Source: a virus
Length of the DNA stretch: 30,091 bases
Direction: 5' to 3' (one strand)
IMG/VR virus record: IMGVR_UViG_3300020450_000063
Span: 1 to 30,091 of that record
In this document: positions 17,403-30,091 of the stretch, piece by piece
How the letters are laid out: each line of letters opens with the position of its first letter
Numbering within the stretch: position 1 is the stretch's first letter
The notes under the pieces: model-generated
Told to the model about the DNA's origin: nothing
The model's database searches: none
Seen by the model: the letters and a program-made list of their open reading frames with translations, nothing else
Program-made: the position numbers and the translations under genes

Positions 17403-20400
17403 TTATCCTTTCATTAAATCTGAAACAGATTTACCTTTTTCCCAAAACTTACATGACCAGTATCTAGCTTTATATTTTGGGCCAGGGTTATCACAGTTGT
17501 GTCTAGCCCTAAAACTTTTTCTTCGTGCTGGGTCATCTCTTTTGATTTCCATGTTAGGGTCACCAAACTCTACTTTGACCACATTACCTTTATCGTTCTT
17601 TACATATACTTTAAATTTTTTGACATCACCTCTCGTTGGATTATTTAGTTCAACTTTTCTACCTTGATATTCTGCAGCCTCAGTTACCTCTCCCCAAGAA
17701 TTTCTCATCATCATTCTATAGGGTGAATCTAATCTACTTGCACTACCACCTTTTCTTTGAAATTTAGTTACACCAGCTTTACCTTTTTTTGGCACTTTTA
17801 AATTTGGTAACTCTTTATCTTTTCTAAGAGTTGACATTTTACGTTCAATATAACTTAATACATCTTCACTTTTTGCCCTTTTCATCTGTGCAGGTGTTGG
17901 TGCTCCCTTTTCACCTTTTTTTCTCATCTTCTCACCAGAACCTTGTTTGATTCTTTGTCTTTTCTTGTGTATATTTGCCCAAAGACTTTCGTTTAAACAA
18001 TGTCCACACATATGTTCTATACTCTCATCCATTCTATTATCATAGAACTTTGGTAGTGGGTCTTTTGTAATTCTTTCTGCATATTCTTTTTTAGCAGGCC
18101 CATCTTCTACTGGAACTTTACCATCAACCATATCTCTGACAAAACCCATTGTGGCTGCGTTTGCATATAGACTACCACATCTTGCAGTAACCTCTTCCTT
18201 GAGTCCATCATAAATTATACTACCAGTTACATGACCAAGTGTGTCTAACATATCACTTGGTATTTTTATACTCATAACTGTGTAAACATAATCTCTGTGT
18301 GGTTTTGGAAATGCATGAGGAATACTTTCATCTATGATATATGTTTCTCTTTCATCTTTTCCAAATGAACCAAGTTTGTTCCATTTCAACATTGTTTCTG
18401 TTACTTCATCTGGTTGACCATATTCATCAATAAGTTTCTCTGCATATCCTTTTGCATCTTCATATTTCCAGTCTTTCAAAGAATCCTCGGCTTTCATCTC
18501 CTCTTTTATATCACCAATTTTAGCCCCAGGCGAGTTCAATACATAATTAGAGTCTGGGCCTTTGAAAACTGTTTTACCATTTTTCTTTACCAAACTTTGC
18601 ATTTTTGATTTACTACCACTTGCAACAATCTTACCTTTTAATACATGATGATACATTGCTTCATTAAGTTCCTCACCACAATCATCACAACATAAGCCAA
18701 GTTTTTCTAAAATCTTATCATGGACTTCATTGAGCTTCCACCACCAATCATCTCCATGTCTTAGTTGATAGATGGCCCTTGTTCTATCAGATTCAAACCA
18801 CTCATTGATAGGTTTTTCTTGAAGACTTTTAATTAGTTCTCTTACTTTAATCTTTGCAAAACCCTTGCCTGGCGTCTTTTTACCTTTTTCTAAATCTTTT
18901 AACATCTTTTGTAATTTGGCCATTTGTTCTTTTTCTTTTGATGTATCTTTACCATACATATCTAGAACACCCATTGTTTCTGTAACTTCTTCTTTCTTAG
19001 CCTTCTTTGCTTTCTTTGCAGCCTTTACTTTAGGTTGTAAATCTGGGTCAGCCTTACCACCTGTTAACATTGAGTTCACTCTTGCAAATGCCCATTGTTG
19101 TGGAGTAGTGCCTGGCCTGTGTCCAGTTTTCCATGCGGCCATTCCTCTGTCATAACTCTTTTTTAGGATACCATAAGGAACACCAGTTTCTTTTGATTTC
19201 TTAACTAGACCAGCAATCTTTTCATCTATTTGATAAAACTTCATATCGGTTTCCTCTTTTTTATCCTTGGCATCTAGATAAGCTGCAATAGCCATATCTC
19301 TAATCTTCTTATCTGATTTGCCCTTGAACTGTGGTGCTTTTGACTTTCTAAAATCATCTATGTAATCACCAGCATCTGCATCTTTACCAAGTTTCTCTTT
19401 TATACCAAGTTTCTTTCTCATATCATCAATCTGTTTCATAATCTCTTTGTGTTTAGGAGAACCAGCTGGAGCTGCCATTCCTTTATTATAAAGTTTAAGA
19501 AGTTCTAGTGGTATCTTAATATCTTTCTCTCCATACATCTGTTTATACTTTTTAGTATATTGCGATGGTTTTGTTTTCTTACCTTTATCGCCAGGAGCTG
19601 GTTTGTAGGAATCTGGGTCATTATCTGGTTTGTCTGCTCCCTTTGCAAAAAATCTTGCACGTGCAACAGCTGTGGATTTAGACATATCTTTTCCAGTTGC
19701 ACCTTTTGCATAATACTTTGCAGGTTGTGTTCCTTTTACATCTCCAACCTCACCTTTGGCTTGTTTTACTTTTGTAATCTTTTTCTGTTCTTCAATATCA
19801 TACAACCAAGCTTTATGTACTTTGTTATTCTCATCTACAAATGATAGATAGTTTGTACCTTTACGAATTACTTTACCTTTTGCACCATTGGCCTCAACAA
19901 TATCTCCTACATTCCAAATCTTTCCAGTAAGATACATATCTCTTAGAGTTTCAAAATCATTCATCTCACCCATATCTCGTTCTTCACGAATACCCATGTA
20001 TTTACGAACATCATTATATAATTTAAGTGCATCTCTAAAACCAGATGGAACTCCCATTTTAAATGAATCAAAGTCTCCTGCTGTAGCAGCTGCTCTCATT
20101 TTTGATGCAGACATACCCTCAACACCCTCAGCATCTGGGTCACGCTCTCCTGCAGAAATAACTCTTATATCATCAAAACCATAGTAACCATGTCTTGCCT
20201 CAACACCATTATATCTATCTAACAGTGTTTGAAATTCTTTTACTCTATCTGAACCAACAACCATATTAATTGCATGGAAACCCTCTTTATATAATTTTAC
20301 TGCAATCTCAATAGCAGTCCTTGCATTTTTATCTGCTTTAATATTCTTTGCATATCTAGGAAACATCTTTCTCATGTATGCCACTTTAAGTGCAAATGGA

Positions 20401-20579
20401 AGTGGGTCTTTCTTTGGATTATTTGATTGGGATGGATAAATACGAAATGGCATTGAACCTGCAACAGATGCTACTTTTTTTATGAGTTTTTCATGGCCTG
20501 TCGTTGGTGGATTAAATCTACCAAATGTGAAAACTATTGTTCCAGTTGCTTCGTTTATTACATCAGAAAATTTACGCAT
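17403..20579 (-). CDS. Giant multidomain protein with N-terminal (T/H)xGH nucleotidyltransferase (1058 aa)
   Basis: The product starts MRKFSDVINEATG, a capsid-targeting-like leader with I-N-E before Ala. Immediately behind is a nucleotidyltransferase domain of the NMNAT/cytidylyltransferase class: G20-R-F-N-P-P-T-T-G-H29 (first motif), VVGSDRVKEF at 107-116, and MSASKMR at 156-162 (the ISxTxxR-like motif). Residues 222-263 look like a KOW/SH3-like beta domain (WNVGDIVEA...KVIRKGTNYLSFVD). Residues 453-515 hold a conserved phage module (YDRGMAAWKTGHRPGTTPQQW), and near 629-640 there is a Cys patch (LCCDDCGEELNEA). The C-terminus has a conserved end (RARHNCDNPGPKYKARYWSCKFW). I choose ATG 20579 (8-base overlap upstream, AAGGG ribosome site); six codons upstream is an alternative. 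The substrate is unknown. Confidence 0.8.
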   Translation of the reverse strand: MRKFSDVINEATGTIVFTFGRFNPPTTGHEKLIKKVASVAGSMPFRIYPSQSNNPKKDPLPFALKVAYMRKMFPRYAKNIKADKNARTAIEIAVKLYKEGFHAINMVVGSDRVKEFQTLLDRYNGVEARHGYYGFDDIRVISAGERDPDAEGVEGMSASKMRAAATAGDFDSFKMGVPSGFRDALKLYNDVRKYMGIREERDMGEMNDFETLRDMYLTGKIWNVGDIVEANGAKGKVIRKGTNYLSFVDENNKVHKAWLYDIEEQKKITKVKQAKGEVGDVKGTQPAKYYAKGATGKDMSKSTAVARARFFAKGADKPDNDPDSYKPAPGDKGKKTKPSQYTKKYKQMYGEKDIKIPLELLKLYNKGMAAPAGSPKHKEIMKQIDDMRKKLGIKEKLGKDADAGDYIDDFRKSKAPQFKGKSDKKIRDMAIAAYLDAKDKKEETDMKFYQIDEKIAGLVKKSKETGVPYGILKKSYDRGMAAWKTGHRPGTTPQQWAFARVNSMLTGGKADPDLQPKVKAAKKAKKAKKEEVTETMGVLDMYGKDTSKEKEQMAKLQKMLKDLEKGKKTPGKGFAKIKVRELIKSLQEKPINEWFESDRTRAIYQLRHGDDWWWKLNEVHDKILEKLGLCCDDCGEELNEAMYHHVLKGKIVASGSKSKMQSLVKKNGKTVFKGPDSNYVLNSPGAKIGDIKEEMKAEDSLKDWKYEDAKGYAEKLIDEYGQPDEVTETMLKWNKLGSFGKDERETYIIDESIPHAFPKPHRDYVYTVMSIKIPSDMLDTLGHVTGSIIYDGLKEEVTARCGSLYANAATMGFVRDMVDGKVPVEDGPAKKEYAERITKDPLPKFYDNRMDESIEHMCGHCLNESLWANIHKKRQRIKQGSGEKMRKKGEKGAPTPAQMKRAKSEDVLSYIERKMSTLRKDKELPNLKVPKKGKAGVTKFQRKGGSASRLDSPYRMMMRNSWGEVTEAAEYQGRKVELNNPTRGDVKKFKVYVKNDKGNVVKVEFGDPNMEIKRDDPARRKSFRARHNCDNPGPKYKARYWSCKFWEKGKSVSDLMKG

Positions 20580-20952
20580 CTTTAGTATCCCTTGCATCTT
20601 TTACTTTTTGTAACTCATTTTTCTTTACAATTTTTAAAGACTTTGTGGCTATCTTATTAATCATATTACCATACTTTTGAGCTACAATAGCATCTACCTT
20701 AATTTTTTGCATCATAGGCATATTTTGATAGTTTGGATAATATTTGTCAAGAACTTTTTTCTTTGCAAGTTTTTGTGCCTTAACTCTTATTTTTTCTGGG
20801 GAGGCCACTCTGAATTTTGACCTCTCTACTTTTTTCTTAAAAGCTGCAGACTTGGCCAATTTTTTCATGCGAAGTGCTTGTTTTCTTCTCTGTGCTAAAT
20901 TAACTTGTTTTAACTCATTTAGATGAGAATATAGTTCAGAAAATGATATCAT
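20572..20952 (-). CDS. Very basic putative internal head protein (126 aa)
   Basis: The protein is about one quarter Lys/Arg and all helical, with AQRRKQALRMKKLAKSAAF and EKIRVKAQKLAKKKVL segments. It starts MISFSELYSHLNEL, the same MISFSEL opening as the next gene upstream. ATG 20952 is preferred over the ATG nine bases earlier because it forms an ATGA overlap with the preceding stop and restores the shared leader. Its charge suits packing with DNA in the head. It resembles, as I recall, basic helical proteins found in cyanophage head clusters. Function is inferred. Confidence 0.7.
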   Translation of the reverse strand: MISFSELYSHLNELKQVNLAQRRKQALRMKKLAKSAAFKKKVERSKFRVASPEKIRVKAQKLAKKKVLDKYYPNYQNMPMMQKIKVDAIVAQKYGNMINKIATKSLKIVKKNELQKVKDARDTKDA

Positions 20953-25344: not shown

Positions 25345-25717
25345 TCGTATTATCCTCTGCCTGTGTTATGATGATATGATATAAAATATCACCAATTAAT
25401 TTAAAAAATTCATCTCCAAACTTTTCTTTTGGAATGCCATTATTCTCTAATATATCATATTTAAATTTTAAATTCAAGTTATTATTTGCATCTAATTTAC
25501 TTTCATCTGGTAAAGTCACTTCGCCATAGCGATACACAACACCATGATAATCTGTTTCAGAAGTAAGACCAATACAAGTTTGATTTGGATAAGCCTCACT
25601 TGTAAGAAAAACAAATTTCTTTGTGATAGGGTCTTTGAGTATTTCTTCTACTGTTGGTAATTTACTTTCATCAACTATTGGTTTTATTGGATTTCCATCT
25701 ACATCTACTAATGCCAT
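25295..25717 (-). CDS. Conserved hypothetical protein before the helicase (140 aa)
   Basis: The product begins with a Pro/Val-rich strand region (DVDGNPIKPIVDESKLPTVEEILKD), then beta segments (KKFVFLTSEAYPNQTCIGL, HGVVYRYGEVTLP) and a C-terminal helix (DEFFKLIGDILYHIIITQA). It starts at ATG 25717 with a TAATG overlap to the 2OG oxygenase stop and runs 50 bases into the helicase gene. Its place might suggest a helicase accessory role, but it does not resemble T4 gp59 to me. Confidence 0.75.
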   Translation of the reverse strand: MALVDVDGNPIKPIVDESKLPTVEEILKDPITKKFVFLTSEAYPNQTCIGLTSETDYHGVVYRYGEVTLPDESKLDANNNLNLKFKYDILENNGIPKEKFGDEFFKLIGDILYHIIITQAEDNTSESINRTNNAEQLSNE

Positions 25718-26277
25718 TACATCGCCCTCACTGTATAATCTATTGCTATTCTTTTTTCATCACACAAAATGTTATCTGCTCTATGTGGAACTCTTGGGTC
25801 AAAAACATAAAATGAACCTGGCTTTGCATAGTATGTTTTACCATTCCAAGTAAACCCACCACCCCATTCTTGTTTCCAATCAGAGTTCAACATACCAAGA
25901 ACTTTTAAAACTTTCATATCTTTTGGTACATCATCCATATGGTCTGTATGAGTATTATCCTCTCTATGTTTATCCTTAATAGAAGCTCCTGCCCACATCA
26001 ATTCTGGATACACTGTGCCATGTAGACCTTTTTCATAAACCATGAGAAACAATGACATCACAATACCAGCAAGTCTTTCTACCTTTGGTGGCTGTTCTGT
26101 TCCATCAACTAATGTAAGTTTAGGATGCCTTTTACTAAAGTGTGCACCTTTTGGATATTGCCAACTCCAGTTCTCTGATTCTTGTATCTGATATCTTACA
26201 TATTCAAGAAACATTGGAGAGGCTACGTTTTCAATTATTTTTACATCATTCATTATCGGTTTGTATGACGTTTCCAT
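25717..26277 (-). CDS. 2-oxoglutarate/Fe(II)-dependent oxygenase
   Basis: The 186-residue protein has a double-stranded beta-helix pattern with the iron triad. H110-T-D112 or, as an alternative, H113-M-D115 supplies the HxD pair, H165 (in VPHRADNI) is the distal ligand, and R176 is the likely 2-oxoglutarate-binding Arg, followed by IAIDYTV. The [11 protein letters not shown] segment belongs to the barrel. Prolyl-4-hydroxylase-like members are common in marine T4-like phages, with unknown substrates. I choose ATG 26277 because AAGGAG lies 7 bases upstream; the earlier frame start has none. It overlaps the end of uvsX by 32 bases. Confidence 0.85.
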
Positions 26278-27274
26278 ACTTAAACTCCTTTTCAGCACAT
26301 TCATTCAAAATATCCATCACATCTTTTGTAAAGTATTTTGTAGGATTACTCATAATCGTTTTACCAAATTCTTTACTTCCGTCTGGTAATTCATATCTTG
26401 TGGATACTTTTTTAAACACATTGTATTTTTCTGCCAACTCTAACAAGCCATAGTATTTATCTAAACCCTTTTCATAATTCAGACGAACATCTACCATTTT
26501 ATTTTCTATTGTCAATCTTGACTTATAATTTTTACAATGTATAATATTACCTACAACCTCTGACCCATCTTTTTCTTTTTTCTTAGATAAGAATACAATG
26601 GATGATGCTGCATATTTAAGACCTGAGCCACCACCCATTTCTTTTGTAGAGAATAATCCCATAGATTCATAAGTGTGATTAGTAACAACCATAGGAACTC
26701 CAGCTCGACCAAGTTTCAAAGTCAACACACGAAATGCAGCTTTAAGAACTTGCGCTCTTGTCATATCTCTAGTTTCTTTACCCTCACTTGTATCTTCAAC
26801 TTCTTTTGTGGTTGACAACATACCAAGTGAATCTAAACACATCATCATAGGTCTTTTTTCAGATTTTTCTAAGTATGAATCTAAAACCTTTATTGCCTGT
26901 GTACGAAACTCTTGTACAGTTGTAACTGGAATGACTACCATTCTATTTGGGTCGATGCCTCTATCAATCACCATCTGTTTAGTGATTGCACTTTCTGATT
27001 CAAAGTAAAGACAACCAGCATCTGGATTTGCATCTAGAAAGCTTTTGACCATGCCCATAACAAAAAAGGTTTTACCAGTTGCTGATTCACCAGCGATTGC
27101 TGTAATCTTGTTACTAGGTAATCCACCATAGATAGAACCAGATAATAACGCATTGAAAATATAAGAACCAGTATCAACAAAATTATCTACGTCTGCCCCC
27201 TCGATGCCATCTGAAACTAATGATGCATATTCATTACCAGTTGTCTTAATTATATCTTTAAAAAAATCACTCAC
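26246..27274 (-). CDS. uvsX: UvsX, RecA-like recombination protein
   Basis: The 342-residue protein catalyses strand exchange for recombination-dependent replication and repair. Walker A is G62-E-S-A-T-G-K-T69. The strand [13 protein letters not shown] (141-153) is Walker B, and ESESA at 92-96 provides the catalytic Glu region. [11 protein letters not shown] resembles the RecA L2-proximal segment, and [11 protein letters not shown] follows. It is shorter than T4 UvsX (about 390), chiefly at the C-terminus. Its start overlaps the MazG stop by one base, and its stop overlaps the oxygenase gene. Confidence 0.93.
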
Positions 27275-27684
27275 TAAATATCTCCTACTTTTCTACTTGC
27301 CGACTTCAATGCATCAAACCCGCCAGGGTATCTTTCTGAAAGTTTACTTATGTTAATATCAAATATTTCTTCCCAAGAACTATCTAAAGCTTTTATAGCT
27401 TGAACCATATACCAGCATATATCAGATAATTCAGACTTCAAATGTTTCTTTGTATCTTCATCAATCTCTTTACCTTGAAACAATATCTTTTTTACGATAT
27501 CGTTGAACTCGCCAACTTCTCCAGATAGTCCTACTGATGCAGTAAGTAATCTAGATGGTTCAATACCTTGTTCTTGCATAATTTCTAATGCATCTTTGAA
27601 GTCATCATAATTTTTAGTCATATCACTTGTAACTGTATCTACAAAGTTTATGTAATCATTTAATATACTTGGTCTTTTTTTCAT
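27274..27684 (-). CDS. mazG: MazG-like nucleotide pyrophosphohydrolase
   Basis: The 136-residue protein has the MazG/all-alpha NTP-PPase signature E56-V-G-E59 followed by E85-L-S-D88, the metal-binding glutamates and aspartate. The linking helix carries [11 protein letters not shown], and [10 protein letters not shown] comes after. The enzyme hydrolyses (d)NTPs, or possibly (p)ppGpp-related or damaged nucleotides, to monophosphates. In cyanophages it has been proposed to tune host starvation signalling, although its substrates remain debated. Its ATG overlaps the stop of the 55-residue gene upstream (ATGA), and it precedes uvsX directly. Confidence 0.88.
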
Positions 27685-27848
27685 ACTAAAGGCTCCGATA
27701 TGTAATGGTCTTGATAATCATCATCTCCCATATAAATTCTAACTGTAGTTTTTTTCATAAGTTTACCAGTTTCATCTCTTTCATATGAGATAAGTTCTTG
27801 TCTTATCAAGCCCTCTCTTGGCATTTCCATTCTTAAATCTTCTACCAT
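27681..27848 (-). CDS. Small conserved protein between CmoA and MazG (55 aa)
   Basis: The frame starts at ATG 27848, with AGGAG 5 bases upstream, and ends in a TGA overlapping the mazG ATG. The protein is a likely two-stranded beta sheet with charged loops: residues 14-24 (LIRQELISYER) and 30-40 (LMKKTTVRIYM), then an acidic Tyr/His-rich tail (GDDDYQDHYI). From memory, short proteins with the VRIY.GDDYQD pattern are found near nucleotide and DNA genes in cyanophages. Function is unknown. It is the third cistron after the methyltransferase and CmoA-like genes. Confidence 0.7.
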   Translation of the reverse strand: MVEDLRMEMPREGLIRQELISYERDETGKLMKKTTVRIYMGDDDYQDHYISEPLV

Positions 27849-27856
27849 ACTTACTC

Positions 27857-28540
27857 CTATTTAATAGCTAGTGCACCAACAAATGCATGATTACGCCAAA
27901 ATGGTTGTGCATCTGAAAATCCAGCTCTATGCAAATTATCTTCTATCTCTTTCCATGTATTTGGTTTCATCATGTGTCTTAGTGTTCTTTCTTTGTCCAT
28001 AATATCTTCAGTATCAAATGACTTTCTTTTATAATCATAATAATTAAATGTAATCATATCTTGAACTAATGCATTCTGACATATGGTTTTTTCTGCAAAG
28101 ATGAAAGCACCACCATCATTTAATCCATTGTAAACATTTTTTATTACGTTTAGTCTATCTTTCTTTGGCATAAACTGTAGAGTGAAAATAGATGTAACTA
28201 ATGAACAATTCATAAATTCATAATTACGAATATCATCTAATATAAAATCTACTTCATACTTGTCTAACTCATCTGCTCTTTTTTCTAAGTCTTTATAAAA
28301 GCCTTCAGCAATCTCTATACCTATGTATCTTCCTTTAGAACAATGGTCTTGATTATATTCAATCATAGCTTTAGTAAGTTTACCAGTAGAACAACCTATG
28401 TCAACAATATTTGTACCATCTTCAACAAAGTATCTTGATAGACTTATTACATCATCAAGTAAATTAGAATAACCACGAATAGATTTTTCTATGTGTTCAT
28501 CAAAGCCTTCTTCTCTATGTGCAAATGTAAAATCAGCCAT
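27857..28540 (-). CDS. cmoA: CmoA-like carboxy-S-adenosyl-L-methionine synthase
   Basis: The 227-residue protein matches E. coli CmoA along nearly its full length: FTF.(E)..FDEH near residue 5-16, S20-I-R-G-Y-S25 (E. coli RSVPGYSN), SAM motif D47-I-G-C-S-T-G53, the characteristic F119-T-L-Q-F123, GLNDGGAFIFAEK (139-151), a DYKR segment (169-172) and LHRAGF near 203-208. CmoA uses SAM and prephenate to make carboxy-SAM, normally passed to CmoB for tRNA wobble modification. Around K183-E-R185 an Arg lies one position from where my by-eye alignment puts E. coli R199, which contacts the carboxylate. The start overlaps the DNA methyltransferase stop by 8 bases, so the two are coupled. I see no CmoB. 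An ordinary methyltransferase role remains possible. Confidence 0.85.
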   Translation of the reverse strand: MADFTFAHREEGFDEHIEKSIRGYSNLLDDVISLSRYFVEDGTNIVDIGCSTGKLTKAMIEYNQDHCSKGRYIGIEIAEGFYKDLEKRADELDKYEVDFILDDIRNYEFMNCSLVTSIFTLQFMPKKDRLNVIKNVYNGLNDGGAFIFAEKTICQNALVQDMITFNYYDYKRKSFDTEDIMDKERTLRHMMKPNTWKEIEDNLHRAGFSDAQPFWRNHAFVGALAIK

Positions 28541-29660
28541 TATGTAACTCCTTGTAAGGTTTCAATACTTTTTCGTAAATAGAATCTGCAATTGCTTTCA
28601 TCATCAAAGGCGGAACCATACGGCCCATTCTTTCTGACTTTTGTTCCCACTTACCAGTTAATTTAAAATCATCTGGTAAAGACATAGCTCTCTGTGTTTC
28701 ACACAATGCAAGTTTTCTCATTTCTTCCCAATGAATACAACCACCAGATGCTGTAATTGTTGGTGCAGGTTTATGTCTTGATATTCTTTTCATGTTGAAG
28801 TGATGACCTTTAGGGTGATAATCACAGCCAGTTAAAACTTTGTCTGGGTCTTTTGGCATCTTGGATGCTGTTTCAAAATGTGAACCCTTAGAAAACTTTT
28901 CTGTCAACATCTTTATTTCTTCTTCATCATATTGTAAATCACTAAATGCATCTCCACAAGTTATAGCTTCAGAGAACTTCTCTGGAAACACACCAGCAAT
29001 ATTCATAAATGTAAGTCCTATCGCTGTGGTTACATCTTCACGAACACCAATGAATATCAATCTCTTTCTTGTTTGAGGAACTCCGTAGTGTGAAGAATCT
29101 AACACCATAGATGATACATCATATCCTATCTTTTCAAACTCATTTGTAATCTTATAATAATATTGTTTAGCTTCACCCATAGTCAGACCTGCAACATTTT
29201 CACCTACGATTACTTTAGGTTTTATTTCTTCTGCAACTCTAAGAAACTCAAAAAATAAATCCTCAATATTCTCAATCTTTTTACCATCTGAATATTTTTT
29301 AGTTTGTTTAAATCCTTTTGAATGACCACCTTGAACCATAGCACCAGCTACAGAGAACGCGCTACATGGTGGTGAACCATCAAGTATGTCTACCTCTCCA
29401 GCTTTGATACCTGCAGCATCAAGTAGATGTTGACCAGTAAGTTCTTTTATGTCATCTGGTAAAATCGGTGTATCTGGATAGTTCTCACTATATGTGTTAC
29501 GCGCCTCCTGCACAAATTCATTGATGCATAATATCTTACCACCTGCTAAACGATAACCTGTGCTAGAACCACCACCACCTGCAAATGTAGATATCACATT
29601 AAATTTATTTTGTTTAGATGCATCATGTACATCTTGTAAATTATACTTTTGATATTTCAT
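28533..29660 (-). CDS. DNA cytosine-C5 methyltransferase with Arg in motif X; candidate carboxymethyltransferase
   Basis: The 375-residue enzyme has all C5-methyltransferase motifs: motif I F26-A-G-G-G-G, motif IV G95-S-P-P-C99 (catalytic Cys99), motif VI E154-N-V156, motif VIII Q196-T-R-K-R200, target-recognition region about 206-298, and motif IX P298-A-P-T-I-T. Motif X reads G346-R347-M-V-P-P351 where most enzymes have G-N-(S/A)-V. That Asn lies near the SAM methyl/carboxylate side, and in M.MpeI its change to Lys or Arg allows carboxy-SAM use. No partner endonuclease is visible, so it is probably protective or regulatory modification. It overlaps the CmoA-like gene by 8 bases and the truncated gene upstream by 4 (ATGA). 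The target sequence cannot be predicted. Confidence 0.9.
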   Translation of the reverse strand: MKYQKYNLQDVHDASKQNKFNVISTFAGGGGSSTGYRLAGGKILCINEFVQEARNTYSENYPDTPILPDDIKELTGQHLLDAAGIKAGEVDILDGSPPCSAFSVAGAMVQGGHSKGFKQTKKYSDGKKIENIEDLFFEFLRVAEEIKPKVIVGENVAGLTMGEAKQYYYKITNEFEKIGYDVSSMVLDSSHYGVPQTRKRLIFIGVREDVTTAIGLTFMNIAGVFPEKFSEAITCGDAFSDLQYDEEEIKMLTEKFSKGSHFETASKMPKDPDKVLTGCDYHPKGHHFNMKRISRHKPAPTITASGGCIHWEEMRKLALCETQRAMSLPDDFKLTGKWEQKSERMGRMVPPLMMKAIADSIYEKVLKPYKELHNG

Positions 29661-30091
29661 TGCATGAACTCCTCTAAAGTATTCGTACTATTTAGCAAGT
29701 TCCAATCTCTACATATATCCATAACCCTCTTTCTATCTCTAAAATTAATTTCTTTATTGTCAATTAATGTTTCAAATAAGCTTATTATACCACAATCTAT
29801 CTGTAAATTCAAGTGCTTTTTTACATTTTTTATTAATTTAAATTGGTAGAATGCATTTCGTACATGATGTTTTTGATATGGTAAATTTACATCATCCCAA
29901 TCCATGTTATAAAAATAGTTCTTGACGTTCTCTGATAGATATGGTGTTATAAACTTTTTCTCATATTTGTCAGCTACTTTCTTGTGCCACTTGTAACCAG
30001 CTTGCATATCTGGTTTAAAGTAATTATCTCTAAACTCATCAAACAATTCTTTTGTATGTTTATAGTTTAGTATAGCTTTTTTACTAATTCC
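29657..30091 (-). CDS. Unrecognised protein, 5' end outside window
   Basis: The reading frame is open from the window edge to the stop at 29657, so at least 144 residues are present and the true start is beyond 30091; an internal TTG at 30046 is not needed. The protein is charged and rich in Tyr, Trp, Phe, Lys and Asn (GYKWHKKVADKYEKKF, YFYNMDWDDVNLPYQKHH), and ends EEFMQ. It looks like a helical globular domain without a motif I recognise. The stop overlaps the methyltransferase ATG (ATGA), so it belongs to the same operon and may be connected with the modification system. Confidence 0.75.
   Translation of the reverse strand, partial: GISKKAILNYKHTKELFDEFRDNYFKPDMQAGYKWHKKVADKYEKKFITPYLSENVKNYFYNMDWDDVNLPYQKHHVRNAFYQFKLIKNVKKHLNLQIDCGIISLFETLIDNKEINFRDRKRVMDICRDWNLLNSTNTLEEFMQ

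Follow-up and report, generated by a model that had tools for sequence, protein, structure and literature searches.

The window, by which we mean the whole 30,091-nt stretch of viral DNA analysed here (IMG/VR record IMGVR_UViG_3300020450_000063), carries a compact set of overlapping genes at one end. The features relevant to the analysis are as follows.

29657–30091, minus strand: cmoY, last 144 aa, its 5′ part cut off by the contig edge; predicted ATP-dependent amide ligase of the asparagine-synthetase type (similarity to S-B43 CmoY)
28533–29660, minus strand: cmoX, C5-cytosine methyltransferase homologue, 375 aa (Pfam DNA_methylase; PDB 8YF3 match)
27857–28540, minus strand: cmoA, carboxy-SAM synthase homologue, 227 aa (TIGR00740, PHROG 4752, 4GEK, S-B43 CmoA)
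27681–27848, minus strand: small ORF of 55 aa between cmoA and mazG, left out of the system (sequence read directly)
27274–27684, minus strand: mazG, replication/nucleotide gene outside the pathway (Pfam/PHROGs)
26246–27274, minus strand: uvsX, replication/nucleotide gene outside the pathway (Pfam/PHROGs)
25717–26304: 2OG-Fe(II) oxygenase-like gene

An earlier note on this DNA had described a CmoA-like gene whose start overlaps a complete C5-methyltransferase gene by 8 bases. Both ORFs are confirmed, with the overlap at 28533–28540, and the residues it quoted (D47 and F119 of CmoA; R347 and the motif X G346-R347-M-V-P-P of the methyltransferase) all check out. Pfam DNA_methylase covers the cmoX product over its full length (E = 2.2e-52). 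Its catalytic motifs are all intact, with SPPC at S96-P97-P98-C99 (nucleophile C99), ENV at 154–156 (E154), QxRxR as QTRKR at 196–200, and motif X as GRMVPP. At the level of sequence, the assignment of CmoX as a C5-methyltransferase is solid. Where ordinary SAM-dependent enzymes of this family have G-N-(S/A)-V in motif X, however, the window CmoX reads G-R-M-V.

The top PDB match of this protein is the structure of SpCmoX (8YF3, E = 7.2e-149), the enzyme of Synechococcus phage S-B43, to which it is identical at 231 of 368 positions (63%). R347 aligns with SpCmoX Arg350, which stands where ordinary C5-methyltransferases have the motif X Asn and contacts the carboxylate in the crystal structure (PMC12783734). 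C99 corresponds to SpCmoX C98, the four published cofactor contacts that we checked are all kept (F26, E48, F49 and D70, equivalent to SpCmoX F25, E47, F48 and D69), and the base contacts Glu (of ENV) and Arg (of QxRxR) are present. The window protein thus carries both published hallmarks of CmoX, SPPC and R350. Avoidance of the GC dinucleotide, as a trace of a GC target motif, was not seen (observed/expected 1.06).

The best NCBIfam match of the cmoA product is TIGR00740 (E = 1.1e-33), at 116.9 bits versus a curated cut-off of 193.3, and we file the protein as a homologue of the assayed phage CmoA rather than as a TIGR00740 equivalog. PHROG 4752 (E = 3.2e-64) and the E. coli CmoA structure 4GEK (E = 1e-28) also match, and identity to the assayed S-B43 CmoA is 61.6% over 99% of the length. 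Cofactor residues of the E. coli enzyme are Y39, D62, G64, S66, E164 and R199 (PMC3663124). The first five are kept in the window CmoA as Y24, D47, G49, S51 and E150, while the carboxylate-binding Arg199 has Glu184 as its counterpart, with Arg185 one residue off. SpCmoA is active and has Glu-Lys at this position, so that the missing Arg199 need not count against activity.

Judged by similarity, the third gene of the operon is a partial cmoY, which was overlooked in the earlier note. The 144-aa fragment shares 45% identity over 132 aa with residues 130–261 of S-B43 CmoY (E = 2e-36) and is 87–95% identical to the complete 272-aa CmoY proteins of three sister contigs (L006–L008). CmoY of L006 matches Pfam Asn_synthase, and all three sister proteins contain LLSGGVDS, an ATP-binding SGGxDS loop. 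Because only half of CmoY lies on the contig, the ATP-binding N terminus of the window protein is presumed from these relatives. As the ORF at the contig end is the C-terminal half of CmoY, which overlaps cmoX by 4 bases, the operon reads cmoY-cmoX-cmoA.

These three genes have a characterized counterpart. Yang et al. (Nat Commun 2025, published 7 December 2025; PMC12783734) described the CmoA-CmoX-CmoY system of S-B43. SpCmoA makes carboxy-SAM with a kcat of 2.33 per s; SpCmoX, which as wild type accepts only carboxy-SAM, forms 5-carboxymethylcytosine in GC; and SpCmoY amidates this base with glycine. In virion DNA, the glycine amide (5gcxmdC) is present and the unamidated nucleoside (5cxmdC) is absent. 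The authors list 5,615 CmoX candidates, drawn from IMG/VR and elsewhere. The system is therefore already published, and the window is another example of it, not a new one; given the December 2025 publication, its novelty is low. In S-B43 (MN018232.1; 8YF3), as in the window, the three genes form one operon, with identities of 63% for CmoX, 62% for CmoA and 45% for the partial CmoY, and with Arg350, Cys98 and the cofactor contacts conserved. The two differ in that gene order is A-Y-X in S-B43 but Y-X-A here, that the window backbone is nearer to the methylo- and pelagiphages Melnitz and HTVC008M, and that the window cmoY is cut by the contig end. In the engineered M.MpeI N374K, as cited in PMC12783734, a basic residue in place of the motif X Asn likewise admits carboxy-SAM; that enzyme is CG-specific and is not a natural CmoA partner. 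The MetaGPA paper (PMC8670742) makes no mention of CmoA or carboxymethylation.

Of the 156 Arg-type genes found, 105 have the order Y-X-A, more than have any other. This order recurs in L006, where the genes run DNA polymerase B, cmoY, cmoX, cmoA, mazG, uvsX, oxygenase-like gene and helicase. In L006, mazG follows cmoA almost directly, versus the 55-aa ORF that separates them in the window. The mazG and uvsX genes mark the insertion site, and the same flanking genes are found in L006 and in the OM43 methylophage Melnitz. Window UvsX is 80% identical to that of Melnitz and 71% to that of Pelagibacter phage HTVC008M; in the latter, the genes between polymerase and uvsX are different ones, none of them annotated as a methyltransferase. 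The 2OG-Fe(II) oxygenase-like gene was considered as a further tailoring enzyme. We discarded this idea, since S-CRM01 and Melnitz, the latter without cmoA, likewise have a 2OG-Fe oxygenase gene after uvsX/recA. In other cyanophages, a gene of this kind overlaps uvsX/recA.

How closely the motif X Arg tracks cmoA was surveyed among methyltransferase homologues from viral contigs (found with five methyltransferase queries and one CmoA query) and from phage regions. We scored the residue at the R347 column and the presence of cmoA within 6 kb, requiring flanks of at least 1.5 kb or at least 3 kb on both sides of the gene. With flanks of at least 1.5 kb, cmoA accompanied 61/62 Arg-type genes and 0/54 of the Leu, Asn, Met and Ile types, counts whose rows are strongly non-independent, most Arg rows coming from one marine clade and most Leu rows from another. 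The corresponding values for flanks of at least 3 kb were 27/27 and 0/31. As loci found with the CmoA query carry cmoA by construction, we recounted without them and without the window, obtaining 50/51 and 23/23 Arg-type genes with cmoA at the two flank lengths. The single Arg-type exception (L079) lies on a contig that ends inside a second, tandem cmoX. Arg-type exceptions sit on contigs that end short of the expected cmoA position, several of them within tandem cmoX arrays. The comparison of GR-type with other motif X types, proposed in the earlier note, thus came out as predicted there, and the caveat attached to it, that Arg-type enzymes may occur without CmoA, is largely ruled out. On the same counts we rejected the idea that Arg in motif X is a widespread oddity with no bearing on cmoA.

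In a tree of 45 representatives, there are three or more changes between Arg and non-Arg on branches with good support, and cmoA follows the switch in nearly all of 200 random pairings. An independent-pairs test gave P = 0.25, with only 3 pairs, too few to reach significance. Arg together with cmoA occurs in separate phage groups, namely cyanophages and related marine phages, Moraxella phage Mcat8, Streptomyces phage TurkishDelight and Pseudomonas phage PaBG. Few relatives (1 and 3 loci) came from scans that started from the YongM and Mcat8 enzymes. In two staphylococcal phages (L142:5947–7646 and L147:5950–8468), cmoA stands beside a divergent C5-methyltransferase whose motif X aligns as GGVINQ, the alignment being uncertain.

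We consider it about 90% probable that cmoY-cmoX-cmoA in the window form a DNA-hypermodification operon of the phage, homologous to the S-B43 system and serving the same pathway. CmoA would convert SAM and prephenate to carboxy-SAM. CmoX, through the covalent intermediate usual for C5-methyltransferases, formed via Cys99, and with Arg347 holding the carboxylate of the cofactor, would move the carboxymethyl group onto C5 of cytosine, with GC as the probable context. CmoY would then activate the carboxylate with ATP and join it to an amine, most likely glycine, and the bulky modified base would probably shield phage DNA from host restriction. The window itself provides the gene content, order and overlaps and the conserved active-site residues; the three reactions, GC specificity and protection from HhaI were demonstrated for the S-B43 homologue (PMC12783734). 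From these we infer that the window enzymes act like their S-B43 counterparts, and the same analogy underlies our assignment of the amine, of GC as the motif and of a benefit to the phage. The earlier note had proposed that the phage supplies its own carboxy-SAM to its own C5-methyltransferase, giving 5-carboxymethylcytosine, a mechanism that is almost certainly right in outline. Its core chemistry is borne out by close homologues (PMC12783734); the bare acid is the less likely end product, cmoY having been missed. With the C-terminal half of CmoY encoded at the contig end, the operon probably leads to an amide of 5-carboxymethylcytosine.

That CmoA and CmoX make 5-carboxymethylcytosine as the final base, with CmoY absent or irrelevant, would have precedents in the family. 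There is no asparagine-synthase-type gene in the full genome records of S-CRM01 (L003) and Mcat8 (L138) or in a 123.7-kb contig (L076), all of which have CmoA and CmoX, and cmoY is missing within 6 kb at 9/34 single-cmoX loci (cmoA present, flanks of at least 1.5 kb). For the window, however, we regard this as quite improbable: the C-terminal half of cmoY is there, overlapping cmoX, the closest relatives carry an intact cmoY, and S-B43 virions lack the unamidated nucleoside (PMC12783734). Less easily dismissed, if still unlikely, is that the pathway is the same but ends in a different hypermodified cytosine, with the CmoY of this clade using an amine other than glycine. Identity to SpCmoY is only 45% for the window fragment and 52–53% for the complete sister proteins, and ligase clusters with other predicted amines have been reported (PMC12783734). 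Yet the alignment of the sister CmoYs with SpCmoY spans almost their full length, and no glutamine amidotransferase domain was found in them, unlike in the TurkishDelight ligase. A broader form of this idea, in which the methylo-/pelagiphage-like clade as such uses a non-glycine amine and makes an undescribed hypermodified cytosine, in the same interval that in sister phages holds a Leu-type methyltransferase and a TET/JBP-like cassette, is speculative and we rather doubt it.

CmoB is the tRNA partner of CmoA. The classic role of CmoA in tRNA modification, together with the C5-methyltransferase family and motifs of CmoX, could be read as an ordinary orphan enzyme making 5-methylcytosine with SAM beside an unrelated CmoA homologue engaged, for example, in tRNA cmo5U synthesis. 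We rejected a tRNA role for CmoA, as searches of the window and of six other phage records gave no CmoB and the window showed no tRNA gene. The nearly perfect association of the motif X Arg with cmoA and the strict use of carboxy-SAM by wild-type SpCmoX (PMC12783734) also argue against such an orphan enzyme, which we consider extremely unlikely.

A hypermodification operon of the S-B43 type is thus the reading that we retain for the window, within a family whose composition varies. S-CRM01 (HQ615693.1) resembles the window in its overlapping genes and in CmoX (59–61% identity) and CmoA (59%), and differs in having the order A-X and neither CmoY nor any asparagine-synthase gene in its whole 178.6-kb genome. 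Such phages, S-CRM01 and Mcat8 among them, suggest that amidation is not obligatory in the CmoA/CmoX family; since S-CRM01, Mcat8 and the 123.7-kb contig are without an asparagine-synthase gene, free 5-carboxymethylcytosine may be their end product. In Mcat8, a gene with a ParB_N domain lies just upstream. Two tandem cmoX paralogues, 50–66% identical, were found in 25 viral loci (L029, L031, L059, L063, L076 and 20 more), possibly reflecting two sequence specificities. Usually there is one cmoA at these loci, and some are without cmoY. In the main text of PMC12783734, a word search turned up no mention of tandem cmoX paralogues.

Melnitz (MZ577098.1) has in the same polymerase-to-mazG/uvsX interval a C5-methyltransferase about 40% identical to window CmoX (tblastn). 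It differs in that motif X is Leu-type (GLMVAP), that cmoA was not found there and that the next gene encodes a Tet_JBP-domain protein; other genes complete the stretch between DNA polymerase B and mazG/uvsX. The Tet_JBP gene beside this methyltransferase suggests oxidation of 5-methylcytosine instead of carboxymethylation. Across the survey, a TET-like gene was present at 28/37 Leu-type loci (flanks of at least 1.5 kb) and at no Arg-type locus. Melnitz-type enzymes with GLMVAP, related to CmoX, were seen at L139:4010–6194 and at loci L151–L230, mostly beside a Tet_JBP gene and never with cmoA. Near the Melnitz methyltransferase/TET-like pair there is also a RimK-like ATP-grasp gene (L139:82–1131), a possible tailoring ligase. 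Neither TET nor dioxygenase nor Pelagibacter is mentioned in the main text of PMC12783734. We infer that sister phages fill one and the same interval with alternative cytosine-modification cassettes.

The window would extend a newly described DNA modification to a marine phage group beyond the single isolate studied. The survey serves as a comparative test of the motif X Arg as a signature of carboxy-SAM use, residue and cmoA switching together on the tree. The location of the operon suggests that marine T4-like phages swap entire cytosine-modification cassettes within one interval (carboxymethyl/amide versus methyl/TET-like), an exchange compatible with an arms race against host restriction.

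Two further observations concern the window at large. CpG is strongly under-represented over positions 1–30091, with an observed/expected ratio of 0.36, compared to 0.43–0.70 in nine other phage stretches. At 17403–20597, a 1064-aa protein matches CTP_transf_like weakly and also matches DUF5824, and its similarity to Melnitz and HTVC008M is split over two or three annotated genes.
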